Origin: Pseudomonadota bacterium
Lineage (GTDB): Bacteria; Pseudomonadota; Gammaproteobacteria; Burkholderiales; Rhodocyclaceae
DNA length: 33,074 bases
Direction: 5' to 3'
NCBI GenBank assembly: GCA_018241725.1
Contig: JAFEDI010000053.1
Span: forward strand, 1-33,074
The notes below the pieces were generated by a model, which saw only the letters and a list, made by a program, of their open reading frames with translations, made no database searches and was not told the DNA's origin. Of this stretch, positions 10,618 through 32,084 are shown piece by piece (positions within the stretch are counted from its first letter, which is position 1; the number at the start of each line of letters is the position of its first letter). A program made the translations under genes and the position numbers.

Positions 10618-10670
10618 CTTCTAATGGCGCCCGGAAGCAGGATCGGCCCGCCAGAAAAAGCCATTAGAAG
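10618..10670. repeat. 11-bp perfect inverted repeat upstream of acs
   Basis: CTTCTAATGGC (10618-10628) and GCCATTAGAAG (10660-10670) are perfect reverse complements separated by 31 bases. The second arm ends 91 bases before the acs start codon. Arms of this length spaced about four helical turns apart (centre to centre 42 bases) could be paired activator sites or the stem of a leader RNA. Confidence 0.75.
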
Positions 10671-10761
10671 CAGGCGCGCCCCGAAGGTCCTGTTCCCCAC
10701 CCAGCCAAGGTTTTATCGCAAGCTAAGTTGCACACTCAATAACACGAGGAGAGGTGAAAAA

Positions 10762-12720
10762 ATGACGAGCGAAACCACCCAGAAGTTCTACTATCCGTCC
10801 GAAGAGGTGGTCAAGAACGCTGCCGTGTCGGGCATGGAAGCGTACAAGGCGCTGTGCGCCGAGGCCGAGCAGGACTACGAGGGCTTCTGGGGCAAGCGCG
10901 CCAAGGAGCTGATCGAATGGCAGACTCCGTTCACCCAGGTTCTCGACGAGAGCCAGGCTCCGTTCTTCAAGTGGTTTGCCGACGGCAAGCTGAACGTCTC
11001 CTACAATTGTCTCGACCGTCAGGTCAAGAACGGTCTCGGCGACAAGGTCGCGCTGATTTTCGAAGGCGACAAGGGCGACATCACCAAGGTCACCTACTCC
11101 GACCTGCTGGGCCGCGTCAGCAAGTTCGCTAACGCGCTGAAGAGCCAGGGCGTCAAGAAGGGCGACCGCGTCGTCATCTACCTGCCGATGTCCATCGAGG
11201 GCGTCGTCGCGATGCAGGCTTGTGCCCGTATCGGCGCCACCCACTCCATCGTCTTCGGCGGCTTCTCCGCCCAGTCCCTGGCCGACCGCATCAACGATGC
11301 CGGTGCCGTGCTGCTGATCACCTCCGACGGCCAGAACCGTGGTGGCAAGGCCCTCCCGCTCAAGTCCATCGCCGATGAAGCGCTGGCCAGCGGCTGCCCG
11401 ACCATCAAGAGCGTTCTCGTCGTGAAGCGTACCGGTGGCGAAACCGCCATGGTCGCCGGCCGCGACATCTGGGCCGACGACCTGCTCGCCCAGCAGTCCG
11501 ACGTCTGCGAACCGGAATGGGTCGAAGCCGAGCACCCACTCTTCCTGCTCTACACCTCCGGTTCCACCGGCAAGCCGAAGGGCGTCCAGCATTCCACCGG
11601 CGGCTACCTGCTGCACGCCATCCTGACCATGAAGTACACCTTCGACATCAAGCCTGACGATGTCTTCTGGTGTACGGCGGATATCGGCTGGGTCACCGGT
11701 CACACCTACATCACTTACGGCCCGCTGGCCTGCGGCGCGACCGAAGTTGTCTTCGAAGGCGTGCCGACCTATCCGGACGCCGGCCGCTTCTGGAAGATGA
11801 TCCAGGACCACAAGGTCAACGTCTTCTACACCGCGCCGACCGCCATCCGCTCCCTGATCAAGGCCGCGGACAATACCCCGGCCGTGCATCCCAAGAACTA
11901 CGATCTGTCCAGCCTGCGTATCCTGGGTTCCGTCGGCGAGCCGATCAACCCCGCCGCCTGGGAGTGGTACTACGAAAACGTCGGCGGCAGCCGCTGCCCG
12001 ATCGTCGATACCTTCTGGCAGACCGAGACCGGTGGTCACATGATCACCCCGCTGCCCGGCGCCACCCCGTTGATCCCCGGTTCCTGCACGCTGCCTTTCC
12101 CGGGCATCCAGGCTGCGGTGGTCGATGAGACTGGTACCGAAGTGCCTTGGGGCCAGGGCGGCATCCTGGTCGTCAAGCGTCCGTGGCCGTCCATGATCCG
12201 CACCATCTGGGGCGATCCGGACCGTTTCGTGAAGTCCTACTACCCGGCTGACTTCCAGGGCAAGCTGTACTTGGCGGGCGACGGCGCGATCCGCGACAAG
12301 GACACCGGTTACTTCACCATCACCGGCCGTATCGACGACGTGCTGAACGTCTCCGGTCACCGCATGGGCACGATGGAAATCGAATCCGCCCTGGTGGCCC
12401 ACGAGAAGGTGGCGGAAGCCGCCGTGGTTGGCCGTCCGGACGATCTGACCGGCGAAGCCATCGTGGCCTTCGTGGTGCTCAAGGGTGCTCGCCCGACCGG
12501 CGACGAAGCCGCCAAGGTAGTCAAGGAACTGCAGAACTGGGTTGGCCAGGAAATCGGCCCGATCGCCAAGCCGAAGGACATCCGCTTCGGTGAGAACCTG
12601 CCGAAGACCCGCTCCGGCAAGATCATGCGCCGTCTGCTCCGTCAGCTGGCCAAGGGCGAGGAGATCACCCAGGACACCTCGACGCTGGAAAACCCGGCGA
12701 TCCTTGAGCAACTCAAGTAA
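10762..12720 (+). CDS. acs: Acetyl-CoA synthetase (AMP-forming)
   Basis: Enzyme of 652 residues, the normal Acs length, converting acetate, ATP and CoA to acetyl-CoA, AMP and pyrophosphate in the cytoplasm. The start at 10762 is set by GAGGAGAGG just upstream and by the alignment-typical N-terminus ([15 protein letters not shown]); upstream in-frame codons are leader. Visible motifs are the adenylation P-loop [20 protein letters not shown], the WWQTETG-like segment [10 protein letters not shown], the acetate/CoA site region [29 protein letters not shown], and [11 protein letters not shown], whose lysine (residue 620) is the conserved catalytic lysine that is acetylated in relatives. The downstream symporter-kinase and symporter genes match the known CrbS/MxtR-controlled acetate switch. 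Transcription likely ends at the hairpin near 12900, so acs is its own unit. Codon bias suggests high expression. Confidence 0.98.
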
Positions 12721-13065: not shown

Positions 13066-13257
13066 ATGATCAAGGCGACGTTGACCGCGCAGCGCCTGGT
13101 GGCGTTATTCCTTTTCGGCTGTATGGCGATCAATTACCCGATACTGGCCATTTTTGATATGCAAGCCAGTCTGGTGGGCATCCCCATCCTCTACTTTTAC
13201 GTGTTCGGGGTCTGGGCCGCGCTCATTGCGCTGATGGCCTGGATCATTGAACGGTAG
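13066..13257 (+). CDS. Small two-helix membrane protein, function unknown
   Basis: Protein of 63 residues with a good ribosome site (GGGGAGGGGAG) right before the start. Two hydrophobic segments are seen (about residues 10-30 and 36-60), so it should be an inner membrane hairpin. It ends 52 bases before the symporter-kinase gene. Its size and place suggest an accessory subunit of that transporter-like sensor, much as the DUF4212 protein accompanies the symporter further down, but it shows no DUF4212 similarity that I can see. I do not recognise a family. Confidence 0.75.
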   Translation: MIKATLTAQRLVALFLFGCMAINYPILAIFDMQASLVGIPILYFYVFGVWAALIALMAWIIER

Positions 13258-13309
13258 CCGGACAAACATCGATGTACGCGCCAGGCTTGTTTGTCGCGGG
13301 GGGGACGCC

Positions 13310-16063
13310 ATGACTGGCACCATGATCGTTGTCGTGTCCTTCCTGTACCTGCTGCTGCTGTTCGCGGTGGCCTACGCGGGGGACACGCGTGCCGATGCCG
13401 GGCGTTCGATCATTGCCAATCCGTCCATTTACGCCCTGTCCCTGGCGGTGTATTGCACGACCTGGACCTACTACGGCAGCGTAGGGCGAGCCGCCTCGTC
13501 GGGGCTCGGCTTCGTGCCGATCTTCCTGGGGCCAACCCTGGTCGTCGGACTGTGGTGGTTCGTGATGCTGAAGATGGTGCGGATCAGCAAGACATTGCGG
13601 ATCACGTCCATCGCCGACTTCATCGCGTCCCGCTACGGCAAGAGCCAACTGCTCGGTGGCCTGGTGACGGTCATCGCGGTGCTTGGCGTGATCCCCTACA
13701 TCGCGCTGCAGTTGAAGGCGGTGTCGACCAGCTTTGCGATCCTCATGCAGTATCCGGCGATCGTCATGCCGGCGAAGACGGCAAACTTGCCGTGGCTGAC
13801 GGACACGACGCTGTACATCGCGCTGATCATGGCCGCCTTCACGATCCTCTTCGGCACCCGCCACCTGGACGCCACGGAGCGCCACGAAGGCATGGTGGCT
13901 GCGGTGGCCTTCGAATCCCTGGTCAAGCTGCTGATCTTCCTGGCCGTCGGCGTTTACGTCACCTTCGGGATCTTCGACGGTTTCGGGGATCTGTTCTCCC
14001 GTGCGGCCGCCTATCCCGAACTGGCACGCCTGATGACCATGGGGGCGAACGGCAACAGTTATGGTAACTGGTTCGCAATGACCTTGCTGTCCATGCTGTC
14101 CGTAATGTTCCTGCCGCGCCAGTTCCAGGTGGCCGTGGTCGAGAACGTCAATGAGAACCACCTGCGCCGGGCGATCTGGCAATTTCCGCTCTACCTGCTG
14201 CTGATCAACATCTTTGTGCTGCCCATCGCGTTGGGCGGGCTGATGCATTTCGCAGGACAGGACGTGGATGCCGACACCTTCGTGCTGACCTTGCCGATGT
14301 CCTTCGGGGATGGCTGGCTGGCGGTGCTGGTCTTCATCGGCGGCCTGTCGGCGGCGACCGGTATGGTGATCGTCGAGACCATCGCGTTGTCGACGATGGT
14401 TTGCAATGACCTGGTGATGCCTCTCCTGCTGCGCTATCGCTGGTTGCCGCTGCAGGGGGAGGGGGATTTGTCCGGCTTCTTGCTGGGAGTCCGACGCTTG
14501 GCGATCGTGTTGATCCTGCTGTTGGGTTATCTGTATTTCCGCTTCGCTGGTGAGGCTCATGCGCTGGTGAGCATCGGCCTGATCAGTTTTGCCGCAGTGG
14601 CCCAATTCGCGCCGGCCATGCTCGGCGGCATGTACTGGCGGGATGCGACCAGGGGCGGGGCGCTGGCGGGCTTGTCCTGTGGTTTTGCGGTGTGGCTGTA
14701 CACGCTGTTGCTGCCTTCGTTTGCCAAGTCGGGTTGGTTACCGGCTGATTTTCCGCACTCCGGGCTGTGGGGCGTGGAAATTCTGCGTCCGCAGGAACTG
14801 TTTGGGCTACAAGGGATCGATCCGATCGCCCACAGCCTGTTCTGGAGTCTCTTCGCCAATATCGGCGCCTATGTCTGGATTTCTCTGCAGCGGCGCCCGA
14901 ATGCGGTGGAGGCGGGGCAGGCCACACTGTTCGTGGACGTCTTCAAGCAGTCCAGGCCCGATGGGGAGGCGTTCTGGCGAGGTCGTGCGCAAGTTGATGA
15001 CCTGCTGCCGCTGATCGGGCGTTTCATCGGACGGGAGCGGGCCTACAAGGTTTTTGCGGACTACGCGGAGAGCCGCGGAGTTGCCGGAGTGGAGGCCCTG
15101 CAGGCGGACGCGGGATTGGTGCACTTTGCCGAAACCACGCTGGCAGGGGCCATTGGCAGCGCATCGGCACGGGTCATGGTGGCTTCGGTCGTTCAGGAAG
15201 AACCGCTGGGGCTCGACGAGGTGATGGATATTCTCGACGAAGCATCCCAGATCCTGGCTTATTCCCGTCGGCTGGAGCAGAAGTCGCAGGAGCTCGAGGC
15301 CGCCACGCGTGAGCTGCGCGCGGCCAACGAACGTCTCAAGGAAGTGGACCGCCTGAAGGACGATTTCATGTCGTCGGTAACCCATGAGCTGCGTACGCCG
15401 CTGACCTCGATCCGGGCCTTTTCAGAGATGCTGCTGGAAGATCCCGACATCGACGTGGCCGACCGGACCCGTTTCCTGGGCATCATCGTCAGCGAGACCG
15501 AACGCCTGACGCGTCTGGTGAACCAGGTTCTCGACATGGCAAAGCTGGAGTCCGGTCACGCAGAATGGCACAACGGAGAGGTCAATCTGGTCGACGTGGT
15601 TGAGCAGGCTGTCGCTGCCACCAGTCAGCTGTTCAAGGACAAGAAGGTCGAACTCGACGTGCAACTGCCCGTCCAGGTGCCGCTCCTGCTGGCGGATAGG
15701 GATCGTCTCGTGCAGGTCGTGCTCAACTTGCTCTCCAATGCGGTGAAGTTCGTATTACAGGGGAAGGGACGGGTAACCGTCGTGTTGTGCGAGACGGAAG
15801 AAGGCCTGCGTGTCGATGTGCGCGACAATGGACCGGGGCTGAGTCTCGAAGAGCAGGCCATCGTTTTCGAGAAATTCCGTCAGGGAGGAGACGCGATGAC
15901 GGACAAGCCCCAAGGAACCGGCCTTGGGCTGCCGATCAGCCGACAGATCGTCGAGCACTACGGCGGCCGGTTATGGGTTGAGAGTTCGCTGGGGGCGGGC
16001 GCATGTTTCTCGTTTCTGTTGCCTTGCGGCAAATCAACAGAAACGAAAGATGAGGCACGATAA
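13310..16063 (+). CDS. Sodium/solute symporter-histidine kinase fusion, CrbS/MxtR type
   Basis: Sensor kinase of 917 residues. The start at 13310 has a G-rich ribosome site (GGGGGGAC) and avoids overlapping the preceding gene. Residues about 1-530 are a sodium:solute symporter domain with about 13 helices. Residues about 545-660 (VFKQSRPDGEAFWRGRA onwards) fit a STAC-type helical linker, then a coiled coil (ASQILAYSRRLEQKSQELEA). The kinase has the phosphoacceptor His at residue 692 (SVTHELRTPL), N-box LNLLSNAVKF, G1 DNGPGL, F-box FEKFRQ and G2 GTGLGL, all intact; no PAS domain is evident. CrbS of Vibrio and MxtR of Pseudomonas share this plan and control acs; CbrA is the more distant relative. 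Position next to acs and an acetate-type symporter supports a role in sensing acetate or a related acid. The partner is probably the receiver encoded next. Confidence 0.93.
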   Translation: MTGTMIVVVSFLYLLLLFAVAYAGDTRADAGRSIIANPSIYALSLAVYCTTWTYYGSVGRAASSGLGFVPIFLGPTLVVGLWWFVMLKMVRISKTLRITSIADFIASRYGKSQLLGGLVTVIAVLGVIPYIALQLKAVSTSFAILMQYPAIVMPAKTANLPWLTDTTLYIALIMAAFTILFGTRHLDATERHEGMVAAVAFESLVKLLIFLAVGVYVTFGIFDGFGDLFSRAAAYPELARLMTMGANGNSYGNWFAMTLLSMLSVMFLPRQFQVAVVENVNENHLRRAIWQFPLYLLLINIFVLPIALGGLMHFAGQDVDADTFVLTLPMSFGDGWLAVLVFIGGLSAATGMVIVETIALSTMVCNDLVMPLLLRYRWLPLQGEGDLSGFLLGVRRLAIVLILLLGYLYFRFAGEAHALVSIGLISFAAVAQFAPAMLGGMYWRDATRGGALAGLSCGFAVWLYTLLLPSFAKSGWLPADFPHSGLWGVEILRPQELFGLQGIDPIAHSLFWSLFANIGAYVWISLQRRPNAVEAGQATLFVDVFKQSRPDGEAFWRGRAQVDDLLPLIGRFIGRERAYKVFADYAESRGVAGVEALQADAGLVHFAETTLAGAIGSASARVMVASVVQEEPLGLDEVMDILDEASQILAYSRRLEQKSQELEAATRELRAANERLKEVDRLKDDFMSSVTHELRTPLTSIRAFSEMLLEDPDIDVADRTRFLGIIVSETERLTRLVNQVLDMAKLESGHAEWHNGEVNLVDVVEQAVAATSQLFKDKKVELDVQLPVQVPLLLADRDRLVQVVLNLLSNAVKFVLQGKGRVTVVLCETEEGLRVDVRDNGPGLSLEEQAIVFEKFRQGGDAMTDKPQGTGLGLPISRQIVEHYGGRLWVESSLGAGACFSFLLPCGKSTETKDEAR

Positions 16064-16137: not shown

Positions 16138-16512
16138 ATGACTAAAAAAATACTGATTGCCGATGACGAGCAGAACATCGTCATTTCCTTGGAGTTCCTG
16201 ATGAAGCGCGAGGGCTTCACCGTGTGCATCGCCAGCGATGGGCAGGAAGCACTCGATCTGGTGCGCAGAGAAGTGCCTGATCTGGTGCTGCTCGACGTGA
16301 TGATGCCGCGCAAGAACGGCTACGAGGTGTGCCAGGAAATCCGCGCCGAGCCTGCGCTGCAGGGGACACGTATCCTGATGCTGACCGCAAAGGGGCGCGA
16401 GACCGAGGTGGCCAAGGGGCTGGCGATGGGCGCCGATGCCTATATGACCAAGCCGTTCTCCACGCGGGAACTGGTGGCCAAGGTCAAGGCCTTGCTGGAG
16501 CTCCCGGCTTGA
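16138..16512 (+). CDS. Single-domain response regulator (CheY-like)
   Basis: Receiver of 124 residues with no output domain. The acidic pair D9-D10, phosphoacceptor D53 (LVLLDVMMPRKNG), T83 and K105 (YMTKPFS) are all present, so it should accept phosphate from the CrbS-like kinase 74 bases upstream. The start at 16138 has GAGGGAGGGG before it. In Vibrio and Pseudomonas the matching regulators (CrbR, ErdR) are LuxR-type DNA-binding proteins; here the output must run through protein contact or another regulator elsewhere. The stop lies 44 bases before the start of the next gene. Confidence 0.93.
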   Translation: MTKKILIADDEQNIVISLEFLMKREGFTVCIASDGQEALDLVRREVPDLVLLDVMMPRKNGYEVCQEIRAEPALQGTRILMLTAKGRETEVAKGLAMGADAYMTKPFSTRELVAKVKALLELPA

Positions 16513-16556: not shown

Positions 16557-18722
16557 GTGAGTGTCAAATCCAGGCAGGGGCTGGCGATCCTGGCCGCCTG
16601 CGCATTGGTCGTGGGCGTTCTTGCGGTGACCGGCGTTGCCCTGTGGCGCGATCTCGCACCCGCCGAGCGTGAAGTGCTGGAGCCTATCCTCAACCCCCGC
16701 ATCGGCCTGCTGATCATGATCGGACTGGTGGGGGCCGGGGCCGCCGCTGCGCTGATGAGGTCCTTCGCAGAGGAGGCCTTCATGGCGCCGGCCAAGCTGG
16801 CCGACGAAGTCGGGTTGATCGTCGGCACCGATCCAGCCCGCCGGGTCAAGCCGATGGGGTCGCCGGAGCTGCAGCGCATCGCTGAGTCGGTCAATCAACT
16901 GGCGGACCAGCGGCGTAGCCTGCAGGAGGACGTGGAGGTGCGCATCGTCGAGGCCCGTCGCTCTGTGGAGGAGGAGCGCAACCGGCTGGCGGCGTTGATG
17001 TCCGAGCTCAACCAGAGCGTCGTCGTCTGCAATCTCGACGGCCGCATCCTGCTCTACAACAACCGTGCCCGCCTGCAGTTCAAGGCCATGTCGGACACCC
17101 CGACGGCGGCGGGGGGCGGGGAGATCATCGGGCTCGGTCGCTCGATCTACATGGTTTTCGAGCGCAGCCTGATCGCCCATGCCCTTGAAAGCGTGCAGGA
17201 GCGCATCCGCCAGCGCAGCGCCCAGCCGGTGGCGAATTTCGTGACCACCACCCGTGCCGGCCAGCTGCTGCGCGTGCAGATGGCGCCGGTGCTGGGCAGC
17301 GGGGAGGCGGAGGGCGAGCCGACCGTTTCAGGCTTCGTGTTGATGCTCGACAACATCACGCGCAACTTCGAGGTGGAAACCCGCCGCGACCAGATGCTGC
17401 ATACCCTCACCGAGGGCAGCCGTTCGGCGCTGGCCAACCTGCGGGCGGCGGCGGAGATGCTGGAATACCCGGACCTCGACGCCGAACTGAAGGACCGCTT
17501 CCTGAAAGTGATCCGTGACGAGGTGCAGGGCATGAGCACGCGCCTTGACGAGACGGCCAATGCCTTTGCCGACTCCCTCAAGACCCGCTGGCCCCTCGAC
17601 GAGATGCTGGGCGCCGACCTGATCGCTGCGGCTCAGCGGCGTATCGAGAAGAAGCTGGGGCTGCCTACCAAGCTGGAGGATGTGGACGCGCAGGTGTGGG
17701 TAAAGGTGGACAGCTTCTCGCTGCTTCAGGCCATCGGCTACCTGGCCAGCCGCCTGTCCGACGAGTTCGAGGTGCGCGAGGTGCGGTTCCGCCTCAGTGC
17801 CGCCGGGCGCCTGGCTCACCTGGACCTGATCTGGTCTGGCCAGGCGATGAGCACCGAGACGGTGATGGCCTGGGAACTGGAGCCCATGACCTTTGCCGGC
17901 GAGAACTCGCCGTTGACGGTACGCGACGTGATTGAGCGCCACGACGGCGAGATCTGGCTGCAGCGGGAGAAGACCCAGCACCGCGCCTTCTTCCGCCTGC
18001 TGCTGCCATCGGCGATCCCCCAGGAACAACTCGAGGCTGCGGCCTACCTGAAGGGCGACAGCCGGCCCGAATACTACGATTTCGACCTCTTCAAGCAGAC
18101 GCCGGCGAGCCACGAGCTGGACGACTGCCCGTTGTCGGAACTGACCTTCACGGTCTTCGACACGGAAACCACCGGGCTCAATCCCTCGGAAGGCGATGAG
18201 ATCATCCAGATCGGCGCGACCCGCATCGTCAATGGCAAGCTGCGCAAGTCGGAATCCTTCGACCAGTTGGTGGACCCGCAGCGTGAATTGCCGGAGGCGT
18301 CGACCAGGATTCACGGCATCACGCCGGACATGCTTGCTGGCCAGCCAACGATGGGCAAGGTGCTGCCGGCTTTTCACGCTTTTGCGGAAGACACCGTGTT
18401 GGTGGCCCACAACGCGGCCTTCGACATGCGCTTCCTGCAACTGAAGGAGGCGAGCACTGGCATCCGCTTTGCGCAGCCGGTGCTCGATACGCTGCTGCTG
18501 TCGGCTGTGCTGCATCCATCCCAGGAGTCCCACCGCCTCGAAGCGATCAGCGAGCGAATGGGGGTCAGCGTGATGGGGCGGCATACCGCGCTGGGGGACG
18601 CGATCGTCACCGGCGAGGTGTTTCTGCGCATGATCCCGCTGCTGGCAGAAATGGGCATCAGGACGCTCGGCGAGGCTCGCCGTGCGTCCGAGAAAACCTA
18701 TTACGCGCGGGTCAGGTACTGA
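16557..18722 (+). CDS. Membrane pseudokinase fused to a DEDDh 3'-5' exonuclease
   Basis: Protein of 721 residues with a GTG start at 16557 and GGGAGG seven bases upstream. In order: two transmembrane helices (about 8-28, 46-66) around a very short periplasmic loop, a HAMP-like region (70-120), a PAS-like domain (150-270, SVVVCNLDGRILLYNNRAR), a region aligning with a histidine kinase DHp/ATPase core (275-490), and a DnaQ/PolC-type exonuclease (530-700). The exonuclease residues D535, E537 (FDTETTG), D623 (HNAAFDMRF), H676 and D681 are all present. The kinase part looks dead: E286 stands where the phospho-His is expected (LTEGSRSAL for SHELRTPL), R399 replaces the N-box Asn, and the glycine boxes are lost. 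Genes annotated as DNA polymerase III epsilon-like with this layout occur near CrbS-type loci as far as I recall; no function is known to me. It probably degrades a nucleic acid or signal nucleotide under control of the receiver or sensor. Confidence 0.88.
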   Translation: MSVKSRQGLAILAACALVVGVLAVTGVALWRDLAPAEREVLEPILNPRIGLLIMIGLVGAGAAAALMRSFAEEAFMAPAKLADEVGLIVGTDPARRVKPMGSPELQRIAESVNQLADQRRSLQEDVEVRIVEARRSVEEERNRLAALMSELNQSVVVCNLDGRILLYNNRARLQFKAMSDTPTAAGGGEIIGLGRSIYMVFERSLIAHALESVQERIRQRSAQPVANFVTTTRAGQLLRVQMAPVLGSGEAEGEPTVSGFVLMLDNITRNFEVETRRDQMLHTLTEGSRSALANLRAAAEMLEYPDLDAELKDRFLKVIRDEVQGMSTRLDETANAFADSLKTRWPLDEMLGADLIAAAQRRIEKKLGLPTKLEDVDAQVWVKVDSFSLLQAIGYLASRLSDEFEVREVRFRLSAAGRLAHLDLIWSGQAMSTETVMAWELEPMTFAGENSPLTVRDVIERHDGEIWLQREKTQHRAFFRLLLPSAIPQEQLEAAAYLKGDSRPEYYDFDLFKQTPASHELDDCPLSELTFTVFDTETTGLNPSEGDEIIQIGATRIVNGKLRKSESFDQLVDPQRELPEASTRIHGITPDMLAGQPTMGKVLPAFHAFAEDTVLVAHNAAFDMRFLQLKEASTGIRFAQPVLDTLLLSAVLHPSQESHRLEAISERMGVSVMGRHTALGDAIVTGEVFLRMIPLLAEMGIRTLGEARRASEKTYYARVRY

Positions 18723-18732
18723 GGCCATGGAA

Positions 18733-20154
18733 ATGTCCGGGGCTGTAACGGGCGTGCGTACCGGCAGCCTGGGGGCTCTCTTGCGCCGTGTGCCGGTGGC
18801 CGTCTCGCCTGAAACCAGTGTCCGGGATGCTCTCGGCCGCATGTGCGTGGCGCGCGTCGGCACGGTGGTGGTGACCGATCCGCTGCGCAGCCTGCCGCTG
18901 GGCATCCTGACCCAGCGCGATGCGCTGCAGCGGGTGGCGCTGCCGGCTGGTAACCTCGACGAAGCGGTGGCTGGCGTCATGACTGGTGGCGTGGTTGCGC
19001 TGCCGCTCGACGCCAGCGTGCATCAGGCCCGGCTGACCCTCGCGCGCCATGGCCTGCGGCACCTGGTGGTGGTGGATGACGAGGGGCGTTTTGCAGGTGT
19101 GCTGTGCAGCGGCGACCTCTATGCGCGCGGGCGGCGGGTAACCGATGACCTGATCGAGACGATCCACGCTGTCGATGGCCCCGAGGCCCTCGCGGCGGCG
19201 GCGCAGCGCTTGCGCGCGGAGGCCGCAGGGCGCGTGGACACGGGTGAGGGAGCACAGCAGTTGGGGGAGTGGGTCTCCATCCTCAACGATCTGATCGTGC
19301 AGAAGGCCATCGAGCTGACCGAAGGCGAGTTCGAACTGCCGCTTGTGCGCTGGTGCTGGCTGGGTTTCGGTTCGGAAGGGCGGCTCGAGCAGACCCTGGC
19401 CACGGATCAGGACAATGGCCTGGTCTTCCTGCCGGGAGGGCGGGACGACACCGATGCGCTACGTGCCCGTTTCCTGCCGTTTGCGCAGCGCATCAATGGG
19501 CTGCTCGATGCCTGCGGCTATCCTCTGTGCCGTGGCGGGATCATGGCCGGTAACCCGCGCTGGTGCCTGTCCGTGGATGAATGGCGGGGACAGTTCGCCG
19601 AATGGATGTGCGCGGCCAGCCCGGAGAGCCTGCTCAACGGCACGATCTTCTTCGATCTGCGCGCGCTGGCCGGCGACGCCGCGCTGGCGTCCGGCCTGAT
19701 GCGCTGGCTGCTGGACAGTGCATCAGACAACGGGCTGTTCCTGCGCCATATGGCCGCCGATGCGCTGCGCAGCGGGCTTCCCCTGGGGCGGGTGCGTGAT
19801 TTCGTCGTCGATCGCCGTAGCGGCCTGCTCGACCTGAAGCGCGACGGCAGCCGGCCCTTCGTCGATGCGGCGCGCATCCTTGCCTTGTCGCTGGGGATTG
19901 GCGATACCTCGACGGTCGGGCGCCTGCGCGCAACGGGGGCCGCGCTGGGCTGGGCTCCGCGCGACGTGGAAGCCTTCGTGGAGGCCTTCGATTTCATCCA
20001 GCTGTTGCGTCTGCGCCGCCAGCGGGCGGCAACCCACCCGCCGAACCAGGTGGCGCCGGCCGAGCTCAACGAGATGGAGCGGGCCCGCCTGAAAGAATCC
20101 TTCCGCCAGGGGCGCCGCCTGCAGCAGTTGCTTGCGCTGCGCTACCAACTATGA
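18733..20154 (+). CDS. CBS-domain DUF294 putative nucleotidyltransferase
   Basis: Protein of 473 residues. ATG 18733 is chosen because GAGG lies eight bases upstream; ATG 18727 is the alternative. A pair of CBS domains spans about residues 10-125 (VSPETSVRDALGRM, then LRHLVVVDDEGRFAGVL); such pairs bind adenine nucleotides. A DUF294 nucleotidyltransferase-like domain follows, with G213-S214-EGRLEQTLATDQDN carrying the D225-x-D227 metal pair, and a helical DUF294 C-terminal domain (about 330-465). The set resembles the GlnD-type transferase fold, so it may nucleotidylate a protein or small molecule in response to ATP/AMP levels. It begins ten bases after the exonuclease gene, clearly in one operon. 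The substrate is unknown; the CrbR or exonuclease neighbours are guesses. Confidence 0.9.
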   Translation: MSGAVTGVRTGSLGALLRRVPVAVSPETSVRDALGRMCVARVGTVVVTDPLRSLPLGILTQRDALQRVALPAGNLDEAVAGVMTGGVVALPLDASVHQARLTLARHGLRHLVVVDDEGRFAGVLCSGDLYARGRRVTDDLIETIHAVDGPEALAAAAQRLRAEAAGRVDTGEGAQQLGEWVSILNDLIVQKAIELTEGEFELPLVRWCWLGFGSEGRLEQTLATDQDNGLVFLPGGRDDTDALRARFLPFAQRINGLLDACGYPLCRGGIMAGNPRWCLSVDEWRGQFAEWMCAASPESLLNGTIFFDLRALAGDAALASGLMRWLLDSASDNGLFLRHMAADALRSGLPLGRVRDFVVDRRSGLLDLKRDGSRPFVDAARILALSLGIGDTSTVGRLRATGAALGWAPRDVEAFVEAFDFIQLLRLRRQRAATHPPNQVAPAELNEMERARLKESFRQGRRLQQLLALRYQL

Positions 20155-20232: not shown

Positions 20233-20496
20233 ATGAGTGATATCGACGCGAGAAGGCAGGCCTACTGGAGGGCCACGCTGCGCCTCACCGGCGCCTTGCT
20301 GCTGCTGTGGGCCGCAGTCAGTTTCCTGCCAGCCTGGTTTGCTGGAGAGCTGAATACCGTCGACTTCATGGGCTGGCCACTCGGTTTCTACATGGCCGCC
20401 CAGGGAGCGTTGCTCATATTCCTGGCGATCGTCTGGGTCTATGCGAACTGGATGGATCGGCTCGATCGCCGGTTCGGTGTGCGCGACGATCGCTGA
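20233..20496 (+). CDS. DUF4212 small subunit of a sodium/solute symporter
   Basis: Protein of 87 residues with AGGGGAG before the start. It has two transmembrane helices (about 15-35 and 47-73) and the family pattern YWRATLRLTGALLLLWAAVS...PLGFYMAAQG...VYANWMDRLDRRFGV. Proteins of this family are encoded directly before VC_2705-type symporters and are annotated as their small subunit. It lies 12 bases before the symporter gene, so translational coupling is likely. Confidence 0.93.
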   Translation: MSDIDARRQAYWRATLRLTGALLLLWAAVSFLPAWFAGELNTVDFMGWPLGFYMAAQGALLIFLAIVWVYANWMDRLDRRFGVRDDR

Positions 20497-20508: not shown

Positions 20509-22545
20509 ATGACTTCCCTTGCCGCGTTCTCCCGCCGTCTGCGTCGTTATTACCTGCTCTATTCCCTCGGTTTCGTGGCCTTCGTCGGCTTGCTGGCGGT
20601 GGGGGAGCGTTTCGGGCTGACGCCCCACTGGATCGGACAGATCTTCCTGTTCGCGACGATTGCCATCTACGCGTCGATCGGCGTGATGAGCCGCACCTCA
20701 GACGTGTCTGAATACTATGTTGCCGGCCGGCGCGTTCCGGCAGTGTTCAACGGCATGGCTACCGCGGCGGACTGGATGAGCGCCGCGTCCTTCATCGGCC
20801 TGGCCGGCACCCTGTATTACGCCGGTTTCGAGGGCCTGGCCTTCGTGATCGGATGGACTGGCGGCTATGTGCTGGTGGCGATCCTGCTGGCGCCATACCT
20901 GCGCAAGTTCGGCCAGTTCACCATCCCGGACTTCCTCGGCGCACGCTATGAAGGGCATTTCGCGCGGGTTGTCGGTGTGTTCGCCGGCGTGCTGGCCAGT
21001 TTCGTGTATGTCGTCGCGCAGATCTACGGCGTCGGCCTGATCACCAGCCGCTTCATCGGCATCGAGTTCGAGATCGGCGTGTTCGTCGGCCTGGCCGGCG
21101 TGCTGGTGTGCTCCTTCCTCGGGGGCATGAAGGCGGTGACCTGGACCCAGGTCGCCCAGTACGTGATCCTGATCGTCGCCTATCTGGTGCCGGTGACCAT
21201 CTTGTCCTACAAGATCACCGGCGTGCCGGTGCCCCAGGCGGTGTATGGCCGGGTGCTGCAGGAGCTGGGCGTGAAGGAGCTCGAACTGTTTTCCGAGCCG
21301 CGGGAGAACGCCGTACATGCCCAGTACCGGGCGCGGGCCGACGAGTACGCGCGGAAGATCGCCGATCTGCCCGAGTCGCTGGCAGCCGAGCGCATCACGC
21401 AAGTCCAGCGCGTGAATGAGCTGCGCATCACCGGTGCATCGGCGCGGGAGATCGCCGCCGCCGAGCGCGCTTTGCGGGATCTGCCGCACTCGCCCGACGA
21501 GGCGCGTCTGAAGTGGGAGAAAGTCCGCCAGGACAGCCTTGCGAGATCCGTCAATCCGGTGGCCCATGCGGAGGCCTTTCCCGGCAACGATGCACAAAGC
21601 AAGGCAAGTGCGCGCAATAATTTTCTTGCGCTGGCTTTTGTGCTGATGGTGGGTACGGCGGCGCTGCCCCACATCCTGACCCGCTACTACACCACGCCGA
21701 CAGTTCGCGAGGCGCGCCACTCAGTGTTCTGGTCGCTGTTCTTCATCTCCCTGCTGTACCTGACTGCACCGGCCTACGCGGTCCTGGCGAAGTGGGAGGT
21801 GTACAGCAACCTGGTCGGCTCCAGCATCGCGACACTGCCCCATTGGGTGGCATCGTGGGCGCGCACGGGTCTGGTGCGGGTGGAGGACATCAATGGCGAC
21901 GGCATCCTGCAACTGGCAGAGTTGTCCATCAACAGCGATGCGATCCTGCTGCTGGTGCCCGAGATCGCCGGCCTGCCTTACGTGGTGTCGGGCCTGGTGG
22001 CGGCGGGCGGACTCGCTGCGGCGCTGTCCACCGCGGACGGGCTGCTGCTGACCATCTCCCACGCCCTGTCCCACGATCTGTACTATCAGATGATCAATCC
22101 CCACGCGTCCACCCAGCGCCGCCTGGTGATTACTAAGTCGCAGCTGCTGGTGGTGGCGGTGGTTGCTGCATGGGTGGCGTCGATGCGGCCGGACAGCATC
22201 CTGTTCATGGTCGGCCTGGCCTTCTCGATTGCCGCGTCGGCCTTTTTCCCGGCGCTGGTGCTCGGCATCTTCTGGAAACGGGCCAACAAGTGGGGAGCGG
22301 TGGCCGGTATGGTGGCCGGTCTGGGCGTCACGTTGTTCTACATCGCGCGGACCCATACCTTTTTCGGCGGCAGCATGGAGGCGGCCTGGTTCGACATCAA
22401 TCCGATTTCCTGCGGCGTCTTCGGCGTGCCGGTGGGCTTCATTGTCACCGCCGTCGTCAGCCTGCTGACCCCGCCTCCATCGGCCGAGGTGCAGGCTCTG
22501 GTGGACTTCGTGCGGCAGCCGGACGGGGAGGGCCAATCGAGATGA
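20509..22545 (+). CDS. Sodium/solute symporter, VC_2705 family (acetate-type uptake)
   Basis: Inner membrane transporter of 678 residues. It has the SSS family signatures (VSEYYVAGRRVPAVFNGMA, GLAALSTADGLLL-type segment) and about 13 helices; close relatives of ActP carry acetate and short monocarboxylates with Na+ or H+. Two unusual parts stand out. Residues about 258-360 are a charged helical insert between membrane segments (RADEYARKIADLPESLAAER). Residues 460-471 read DINGDGILQLAE, a full EF-hand calcium loop. The protein follows the DUF4212 subunit and completes the sensor cluster, which supports acetate or a similar acid as substrate. It is long for the family as I remember it, mainly because of the insert. 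Confidence 0.92.
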   Translation: MTSLAAFSRRLRRYYLLYSLGFVAFVGLLAVGERFGLTPHWIGQIFLFATIAIYASIGVMSRTSDVSEYYVAGRRVPAVFNGMATAADWMSAASFIGLAGTLYYAGFEGLAFVIGWTGGYVLVAILLAPYLRKFGQFTIPDFLGARYEGHFARVVGVFAGVLASFVYVVAQIYGVGLITSRFIGIEFEIGVFVGLAGVLVCSFLGGMKAVTWTQVAQYVILIVAYLVPVTILSYKITGVPVPQAVYGRVLQELGVKELELFSEPRENAVHAQYRARADEYARKIADLPESLAAERITQVQRVNELRITGASAREIAAAERALRDLPHSPDEARLKWEKVRQDSLARSVNPVAHAEAFPGNDAQSKASARNNFLALAFVLMVGTAALPHILTRYYTTPTVREARHSVFWSLFFISLLYLTAPAYAVLAKWEVYSNLVGSSIATLPHWVASWARTGLVRVEDINGDGILQLAELSINSDAILLLVPEIAGLPYVVSGLVAAGGLAAALSTADGLLLTISHALSHDLYYQMINPHASTQRRLVITKSQLLVVAVVAAWVASMRPDSILFMVGLAFSIAASAFFPALVLGIFWKRANKWGAVAGMVAGLGVTLFYIARTHTFFGGSMEAAWFDINPISCGVFGVPVGFIVTAVVSLLTPPPSAEVQALVDFVRQPDGEGQSR

Positions 22546-31052: not shown

Positions 31053-32084
31053 ATGTACACGCATCTACTCGTACCCCTGGACGGTTCGGCACTGTCCTCC
31101 AGCCTGGTGACTCAGGCCGTCGATTTCGCCCGTGCGCTGAAGGCGCGGATCACTTTCTTCACCGCCCGCGAGGACGTGGGCGGCAGCGGCGACGGGGCGC
31201 TGCTGCGCACCCTGGCGCCAGAGGACTTTGCCGCCACGGTGGCCGGCGAGGCCAACGCGATCCTGGCCAAGGCCCTGGTGGCCGCGCGGGCCGTCGGGCT
31301 GGACTGCGAGGCACTGGCCCGCACTGGCGCACGGCCCTACGAACTGATCCTGTCCGTTGCCGCGGAGCGCGGCTGCGACCTGATCTTCATGGCCTCCCAT
31401 GGTCATCGCGGATTGCGCGGTCTGGTGCTCGGCTCACAGACCCAGAAGGTGCTGGCTCACAGCAGCCTGCCAGTGCTGGTGGCCAGCATCGAGAGCAATG
31501 TCGCTAGCGATGCGGCCCGCGCGGCCATCGACATCATCAAGGACGAGCACCGCGCCATCGCCGCCGTCGTCAATGGCCTGCGCCGCCAGGCCGCGCGCCT
31601 GAAGGCTGACACGGCCGACGCGCCGGATCTGGATTTCGTCGCGGCGTTGCTGCATTACATCCGCGCCTTTCCGGACGTGCTGCATCACCCCAAGGAAGAG
31701 CGTCATCTGTTCCGCCGGCTGGCCCAGCGTGACGGCGAGCTGGATGCGCTGATCGCCACGCTGGAGCACGAGCACAGGGACGGCGGCGCCCAGTTGGCGG
31801 CCATCGACACACTGCTCGCGGAGGTCCGCCAGGACGCCGCGCGACAGGGCGAGCTGGCCGCGGCGATCGAGCGCTTCGCCGACGCCCAGTGGCAGCACAT
31901 CAGCACTGAAGAAAAGCTGATCCTGCCGGCGGCGCGCCGCCTCCTCGGCGAGGAGGACTGGCGCGTCATCGAGAGCGCCTTCCGCCAGAACGGCGACTGC
32001 CGCGTCGGTAGCGAACAGGATCTGGCCTTCCGGCAGCTGTTCGTGCGCCTGATGAACGACGAGGCGGGCGGCGCGACGACTTGA
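31053..32084 (+). CDS. Universal stress protein fused to a hemerythrin-like domain
   Basis: Protein of 343 residues with AGGAGA before the start, ten bases after the permease stop. Residues about 1-145 are a UspA domain (YTHLLVPLDGSALSSSLV, then IFMASHGHRGLRGLVLGSQT, the GxxG-9-G-type nucleotide loop). Residues about 155-320 are a hemerythrin/HHE four-helix domain with the metal ligands in DEHRAI, LHHPKEERHLF, LEHEH and QHISTEEKLILP. The first part binds ATP in many relatives; the second would bind a di-iron centre and sense or carry O2, NO or iron. The fusion suggests a cytoplasmic redox or oxygen-linked stress sensor tied to the transport operon. Its precise function is unknown. Confidence 0.92.
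   Translation: MYTHLLVPLDGSALSSSLVTQAVDFARALKARITFFTAREDVGGSGDGALLRTLAPEDFAATVAGEANAILAKALVAARAVGLDCEALARTGARPYELILSVAAERGCDLIFMASHGHRGLRGLVLGSQTQKVLAHSSLPVLVASIESNVASDAARAAIDIIKDEHRAIAAVVNGLRRQAARLKADTADAPDLDFVAALLHYIRAFPDVLHHPKEERHLFRRLAQRDGELDALIATLEHEHRDGGAQLAAIDTLLAEVRQDAARQGELAAAIERFADAQWQHISTEEKLILPAARRLLGEEDWRVIESAFRQNGDCRVGSEQDLAFRQLFVRLMNDEAGGATT

Follow-up and report, generated by a model that had tools for sequence, protein, structure and literature searches.

The window (the whole stretch of DNA analysed here, 33,074 nt from a Rhodocyclaceae contig) carries a series of genes that share a strand: acetyl-CoA synthetase (Acs), a transporter-fused histidine kinase, a receiver, a membrane pseudokinase-exonuclease that we refer to as PKexo, a CBS-DUF294 protein, a DUF4212 protein and a sodium/solute symporter. 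The features are as follows.

10624..12720, + strand: acetyl-CoA synthetase (Acs), from homology search
13247..16063, + strand: transporter-fused histidine kinase with intact HisKA and HATPase_c ("CbrA/CrbS type," a label given in this analysis)
16138..16512, + strand: single-domain receiver without an output domain
16557..18722, + strand: membrane pseudokinase-exonuclease (PKexo), 721 aa, from ORF and domain searches
16578..16754, + strand: two membrane helices of PKexo, about residues 8–30 and 48–66, inside hydrophobic stretches of about residues 5–34 and 40–71 (hydropathy and long helices in the model)
17004..17354, + strand: PAS-like domain, residues 150–266
17358..17579, + strand: DHp-like helices, residues 268–341, with E286 replacing the phospho-His
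17421..17459, + strand: putative receiver-docking positions on helix 1 (R289, A293, N294, A297, A298, M301)
17508..17519, + strand: putative receiver-docking positions on helix 2 (V318, D321), mapped via profile alignment to PDB kinases
17589..18011, + strand: CA-like domain lacking the usual ATP-site residues (W381 in 167/169 alignment rows, W426 in 168/169)
18063..18092, + strand: linker motif RPEYYDFDLF, residues 503–512
18147..18719, + strand: DEDDh 3'-5' exonuclease domain (RNase_T, E 9.9e-35)
18727..20154, + strand: CBS-DUF294 nucleotidyltransferase-like protein, from domain search
20233..20496, + strand: DUF4212 small symporter subunit, from domain and homology searches
20509..22545, + strand: VC_2705-type sodium/solute symporter, from homology search

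As the initial annotation had proposed, this is an acetate-type cluster with an adjoining receiver; Acs, the symporter, the live kinase and the receiver all lie on the PKexo strand. The transporter-like part of the kinase (residues 25–493) matches the solved chain 10ed_A, which is named as a histidine kinase, at E 1.4e-71. A short stretch of this part matches the window's own symporter weakly (33.5 bits), and the Pfam symporter model SSF was not reached. In joining an SLC5-type transporter part to a live kinase, and in belonging to an acetate cluster, the protein resembles CrbS/CrbR and CbrA/CbrB. CrbS is a hybrid kinase and CrbR a LuxR-type activator (accessible text of PMC9100948 and PMC5715377), whereas the kinase here is not hybrid, a domain search of 13247–16063 finding no receiver domain, and the neighboring receiver has no output domain. 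No LuxR-type regulator CrbR adjoins the kinase within the window, and the CrbR-type (ACTU) promoter motif, in a pattern derived from sites in the accessible part of PMC5715377, had 0 matches there. Counts of promoters and terminators in the window were near chance.

The PKexo frame opens with GTG, preceded by GGGAGG, a plausible ribosome site. From the N end it encodes two membrane helices, a HAMP-like region, a PAS-like domain, a kinase-like core, a linker and an RNase_T/DEDDh exonuclease. The membrane helices and the PAS-like and HAMP-like regions had been named in the initial annotation; they are borne out by hydropathy and by domain matches that are weak yet recurrent (PAS_4 in 51/66 PKexo relatives and HAMP in 5/66, both at E ≤ 0.1). 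The PAS-like domain is well conserved (mean JS 0.486). Within it, C158 and H208 (window 17028–17180) are near-invariant, occurring in 151/169 and 144/169 rows, and are possibly a cofactor or ligand site. A membrane protein that joins a dead kinase to an intact nuclease is thereby confirmed to exist. A literature search by titles and abstract openings, with most subscription papers outside its coverage, found no description of a PKexo-type fusion.

In its kinase-like core, the window protein falls below the HisKA cut-off (E 0.085). A profile of residues 268–518 built from 66 rows matched 13 PDB sequences at E ≤ 1 (best 1.5e-4), all of them named histidine kinases or photoreceptor-FixL kinase chimeras, and hhalign aligned the core to the neighboring live kinase over 213 columns (E 8.3e-9). 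The predicted structure of the core (pLDDT 77) matches DHp-CA structures, and its best 50 structural matches (Foldseek) were all kinases or proteins containing one; DivL ranked 13th. The core has a histidine kinase fold, a DHp two-helix hairpin followed by CA; the structural comparison suggested in the initial annotation came out on the side of kinases, and a non-kinase fold was not seen.

The catalytic residues of this fold appear to be gone. The alignment to the live kinase paired E286 with the phospho-His site and R399 with the N-box Asn site. In our alignment of 169 rows (window protein included), position 286 is Glu in 136, Asp in 13, Gln in seven, Arg in four, Ala in two, Thr in two and Val in one, with two gaps and two rows not listed, and it is His in 0/169. 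Position 399 is Arg in 127 rows and Lys in 20, with Asn in three, and position 426, the G1 Asp site, is Trp in all but one row and Asp in 0/169. Judged by its phospho-His, N-box Asn and G1 Asp sites, PKexo is probably not an active histidine kinase. The Glu and Arg replacements stood as originally read by eye; the accompanying statement that the glycine boxes were gone was only nearly right, since position 428, a G1 Gly, is still Gly in 163/169 rows.

The exonuclease end tells the opposite story. It scores 120.9 bits against RNase_T (PF00929; cut-off 24), and D535, E537, D623, H676 and D681 are complete in 101/101 rows of the first set and in 164/169 overall. By family score and catalytic residues it would be a DEDDh exonuclease, and one that looks alive, so the intactness first claimed for it is upheld. 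Of the five rows without the full set, L131 and L137 end before the nuclease, and L152–L154 are three genomes from a single family whose nuclease is dead as well. Among the large domains of PKexo, the nuclease is the best preserved (mean JS 0.62); the RPEYYDFDLF linker, which we chose after the alignment had been seen, outscores every domain compared for conservation (mean JS 0.739). The best solved relatives of the nuclease are PolC and DnaQ exonuclease domains (2p1j, E 2.3e-34; DnaQ epsilon, 2.1e-15). Those are proofreading domains that belong to polymerases, whereas the PKexo nuclease shares its chain with a membrane pseudokinase and is linked to signaling genes. An oligoribonuclease-like, dinucleotide-cleaving role had also been floated; with PolC and DnaQ as the nearest solved structures and oligoribonuclease (Orn) absent among the 14 PDB matches, such a substrate is unsupported.

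In an unrooted tree of 47 nuclease domains, the 25 fused domains fall on one side of a branch (support 95/76), and the stand-alone ones form a separate group. The tree has three groups and no root, and a derivation of the PKexo nuclease from the stand-alone, DUF294-linked one gains no support from it. A test of grouping fused with stand-alone domains (p 0.005) was not used, as L189, classed among the "others," sat inside the stand-alone group. An anti-phage defense reading was set aside; the matches were DEDDh models and PDC-S48, and covered the nuclease part only.

A search turned up 578 stretches encoding a relative, some of them perhaps matched through the nuclease part only. We compared PKexo neighborhoods at 120 loci (80 + 40), in which a few species appear twice (e.g., L082 and L177). 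Among the 114 loci having >1 kb upstream, 104 have a receiver no more than 0.9 kb upstream of PKexo on the same strand (the automated rule counted 102, to which L054 and L090, at distance 0, were added); the 10 loci without one are L102, L103, L106, L179, L180, L188, L191, L195, L213 and L215. Except in L052 and L210, the receiver frame stops within about 10 residues of the domain end, which argues that the linked receiver has no output domain. A transporter-kinase occurs within 5 kb, on the same strand and on either side, in 70 of the 84 loci having >4 kb on both sides. Gene order is mostly kinase-receiver-PKexo, with the kinase downstream of PKexo in 16 loci of class- and phylum-level relatives. 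That the linkage survives such rearrangement points to a functional unit. Acs, DUF294 and symporter genes are less regularly linked to PKexo.

The PKexo core was found at E ≤ 1e-10 in at least 24/349 genomes of the order, at least 20/369 of the class and at least 34/299 of the phylum (own genome counted in each), frequencies that are lower bounds because seven to nine candidates were scored per genome; a core-less variant in genome G135 was missed in this way. Two PKexo copies per genome were seen in G451, G581, G065 and G593, and in G451 only one of them adjoins the receiver and kinase.

The kinase appears not to be confined to genomes with PKexo. In the order sample, 21 of the 42 kinase-bearing genomes had no match to the PKexo core (seven candidates scored per genome). 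Among 17 loci from kinase-bearing, core-negative genomes, 16 lack PKexo in the stretch (two of these without a recognized receiver, and one ending 0.25 kb past the receiver), and longer stretches examined in G276, G056, G175 and G187 still showed none. At some of these loci unrelated genes come next. The receiver must therefore have other targets too. After four kinase-receiver pairs without PKexo (L256, L262, L269 and L271) comes an OmpR-type regulator encoded on the opposite strand.

In the G135 variant (L284:1235–2908), the PAS domain runs straight into the linker and nuclease, and the whole DHp-CA core is missing. The gene is still surrounded by the kinase, receiver, DUF294 and symporter genes, so the pseudokinase core is removable within an otherwise complete cluster.

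A docking face used by the receiver should persist on the dead kinase only while a receiver exists, a prediction that we tested. Docking positions came from DivL (+3, +7, +11, +12 and +15 from the His site; accessible text of PMC4211667) and from HK853 rewiring mutants in PDB titles (+8, +11, +15 and two on helix 2); the DivL helix-2 positions H579 and A582 were left out. The positions were externally sourced, but the general conservation of PKexo had already been seen before the test. The eight docking positions had a mean JS of 0.616 versus 0.391 elsewhere in DHp (permutation p 5e-5; 76 representatives, rows L131, L134, L137 and L152–L154 dropped). In the live kinase there was no such excess (0.686 vs. 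0.705, p 0.64), a control that is uninformative because its DHp is highly conserved throughout. With its docking face conserved and its kinase residues gone, PKexo would fit a DivL-like receiver-sensing pseudokinase.

The face deteriorates where its presumed partners are missing. The docking score was 0.77 in 11 copies without a receiver neighbor, compared to 2.66 in 52 representatives with one (p 3.4e-5), and the difference persisted (p 1.4e-4) once the score was regressed on the rest of the protein. A kinase orthologue is missing in 13 of 65 PKexo genomes, where "missing" includes partial matches over the transporter part (36%–41% in G434, G572, G676, G476 and G596; 48% in G980). Counting the face as lost at a residual cut of −1, picked from the result listing, and with G205 (a fragment) dropped from the by-genome test, it was lost in 10/13 kinase-less genomes versus 2/52 kinase-bearing ones (residuals p 2.6e-4). 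With the receiver as predictor, chosen after the relatedness-corrected kinase test and with G980 (ambiguous receiver) dropped, the face was lost in 9/10 receiver-less genomes versus 2/54 others; genome-wide searches for the receiver covered just 16 genomes, and four of the 54 (G065, G118, G581 and G593) showed none in the stretch. Three genomes with the kinase and receiver elsewhere in the genome (G1014, G451 and G692) kept the face. The genomes behind L102, L103, L129 and L132 gave neither a kinase nor a receiver match.

In kinase-less genomes, PAS and CA were not significantly lower (p 0.21 and 0.09, respectively); non-docking DHp positions decayed too (p 2e-5), so the loss is not confined to the docking face. 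Three kinase-less genomes keep the face: G790, with a receiver beside PKexo; G831, an 84% complete draft; and G476 (90% complete, 430 contigs), which has no kinase or receiver match, keeps the face regardless and is unexplained. Correction for relatedness left six supported independent pairs for the kinase, of which 3.8 on average went the same way and 2.2 showed no difference (median p 0.125), and four pairs for the receiver, with 3.5 and 0.5, respectively (median p 0.125). The pairs agree in direction but are too few, and relatedness weakens the statistics.

DivL of Caulobacter offers a precedent for the core, as a dead kinase with PAS domains. It binds DivK~P by the normal docking face and extends its life, neither phosphorylates nor dephosphorylates DivK, acts on another kinase and keeps the H-region, N, G1, F and G2 motifs save for a Tyr at the His site (accessible text of PMC4211667). 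PKexo, in contrast, has no N box or G1 Asp and carries a nuclease; with W426 at the G1 Asp site and Glu at the His site, it is probably not a DivL orthologue. For the nuclease end, the parallel is PP_0353 of Pseudomonas putida, a stand-alone RNase_T exonuclease whose operon also encodes a CBS-domain target of MxtR/ErdR (CrbS/R). It is required for normal pyruvate growth, and its authors speculate on mRNA decay (both from the accessible text of PMC9927547). PP_0353 shares with PKexo the type of nuclease and the same kind of regulon and neighborhood; it differs in having no membrane, PAS or kinase part, and stand-alone nucleases group separately from the fused ones in the tree. The system looks like a version of the CrbS-type regulon whose nuclease carries a receiver-reading pseudokinase.

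Two-component outputs are mostly DNA-binding proteins or second-messenger enzymes. We propose that PKexo instead gives a two-component circuit a nuclease as its output, an explanation that we rate at an even chance as a whole. It draws on sequence for the architecture, the loss of kinase residues, the intact nuclease residues, the linkage, and the docking face with its decay where the kinase or receiver is missing; from these we infer the signal, the phosphorylation, the docking, the sign of control and the substrate. The transporter-fused kinase would sense a carboxylate (acetate, perhaps pyruvate) or its flux and phosphorylate the single-domain receiver, and the phospho-receiver would dock onto the DHp helices of the pseudokinase. 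Having no residues for holding ATP or accepting phosphate, the pseudokinase may serve as a receiver sensor, as DivL does for DivK. Docking would shift the dimer, and the RPEYYDFDLF linker would pass on the change, switching the membrane-tethered exonuclease on or off, with the PAS domain supplying a second input. The most likely target would be single-stranded RNA close to the membrane, which would make the tuning of carbon-source use post-transcriptional. The mechanism suggested in the initial annotation survives in its dead kinase, intact nuclease and receiver (104/114) and in nuclease control as the likely theme; a dinucleotide substrate, though conceivable, lacks support.

Other readings give the same parts different roles. 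The PAS domain or the membrane helices could be the real input, with the pseudokinase merely a dimeric scaffold to the nuclease and the receiver acting elsewhere. The conservation of the PAS domain with its C158 and H208, the PAS-linker-nuclease protein of G135 and the half of kinase-bearing order-sample genomes without a PKexo core match would all suit this reading. We nevertheless consider it rather unlikely, as it leaves the receiver linkage unexplained, and it is the DHp and docking face, not PAS, that decay where the kinase or receiver is missing. That the nuclease is the best-kept large domain, with its residues intact in nearly all rows, and that G135 retains linker and nuclease after losing the kinase core, also speak against information flowing in reverse, with the pseudokinase holding or shielding the phospho-receiver or touching the live kinase, thereby tuning the kinase, and the nuclease serving a separate function. 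The lengthened life of DivK~P under DivL (accessible text of PMC4211667) and the likeness of the core to the neighboring kinase lend this arrangement some appeal, but it strikes us as improbable.

The adjacent DUF294 gene suggests yet another pairing, in which the nuclease trims 3' ends made by the nucleotidyltransferase-like protein and the two-component input sets the balance. The DUF294 gene has its nearest in-frame ATG 4 bases past the PKexo stop. Moreover, PKexo is absent from the stretch in 28 of 30 DUF294 loci (from the 44 of 143 class-level genomes with a match), and in 17 of those 28 a stand-alone DEDDh exonuclease sits beside DUF294. Against such a partnership, many PKexo loci have DUF294 far off or show none, and when the CBS-domain partner PP_0354 was deleted no phenotype on pyruvate appeared, unlike with PP_0353 (accessible text of PMC9927547). 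We regard this pairing as improbable too.

Returning to the nuclease-terminated circuit, its most specific form, in which a phospho-receiver binds a kinase-fold receptor that gates a membrane exonuclease and so sets RNA levels by carboxylates with no transcription factor, falls somewhat short of an even chance in our estimate. New here are the conserved kinase-receiver-PKexo unit and a docking face that tracks the kinase and receiver. If the proposal is true, this is a post-transcriptional two-component pathway, within and beyond its own class of Pseudomonadota, in which a further pseudokinase besides DivL reads a phospho-receiver, and a dead-kinase-gated nuclease lets nutrient sensing act directly on nucleic acid. 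A kind of exonuclease tied to pyruvate growth without a mechanism in the accessible text of PMC9927547 would also gain a candidate partner and input.

Natural mutants that are receiver-less, core-less or nuclease-dead make the pseudokinase idea testable. In one family (L152, L153 and L154; L191, L192), PKexo has lost both kinase and nuclease residues and is a double pseudoenzyme; searches for a receiver and a kinase orthologue in the L152–L154 family found neither. Elsewhere in the window, positions 31053–32084 encode a universal stress protein domain fused to a hemerythrin domain.
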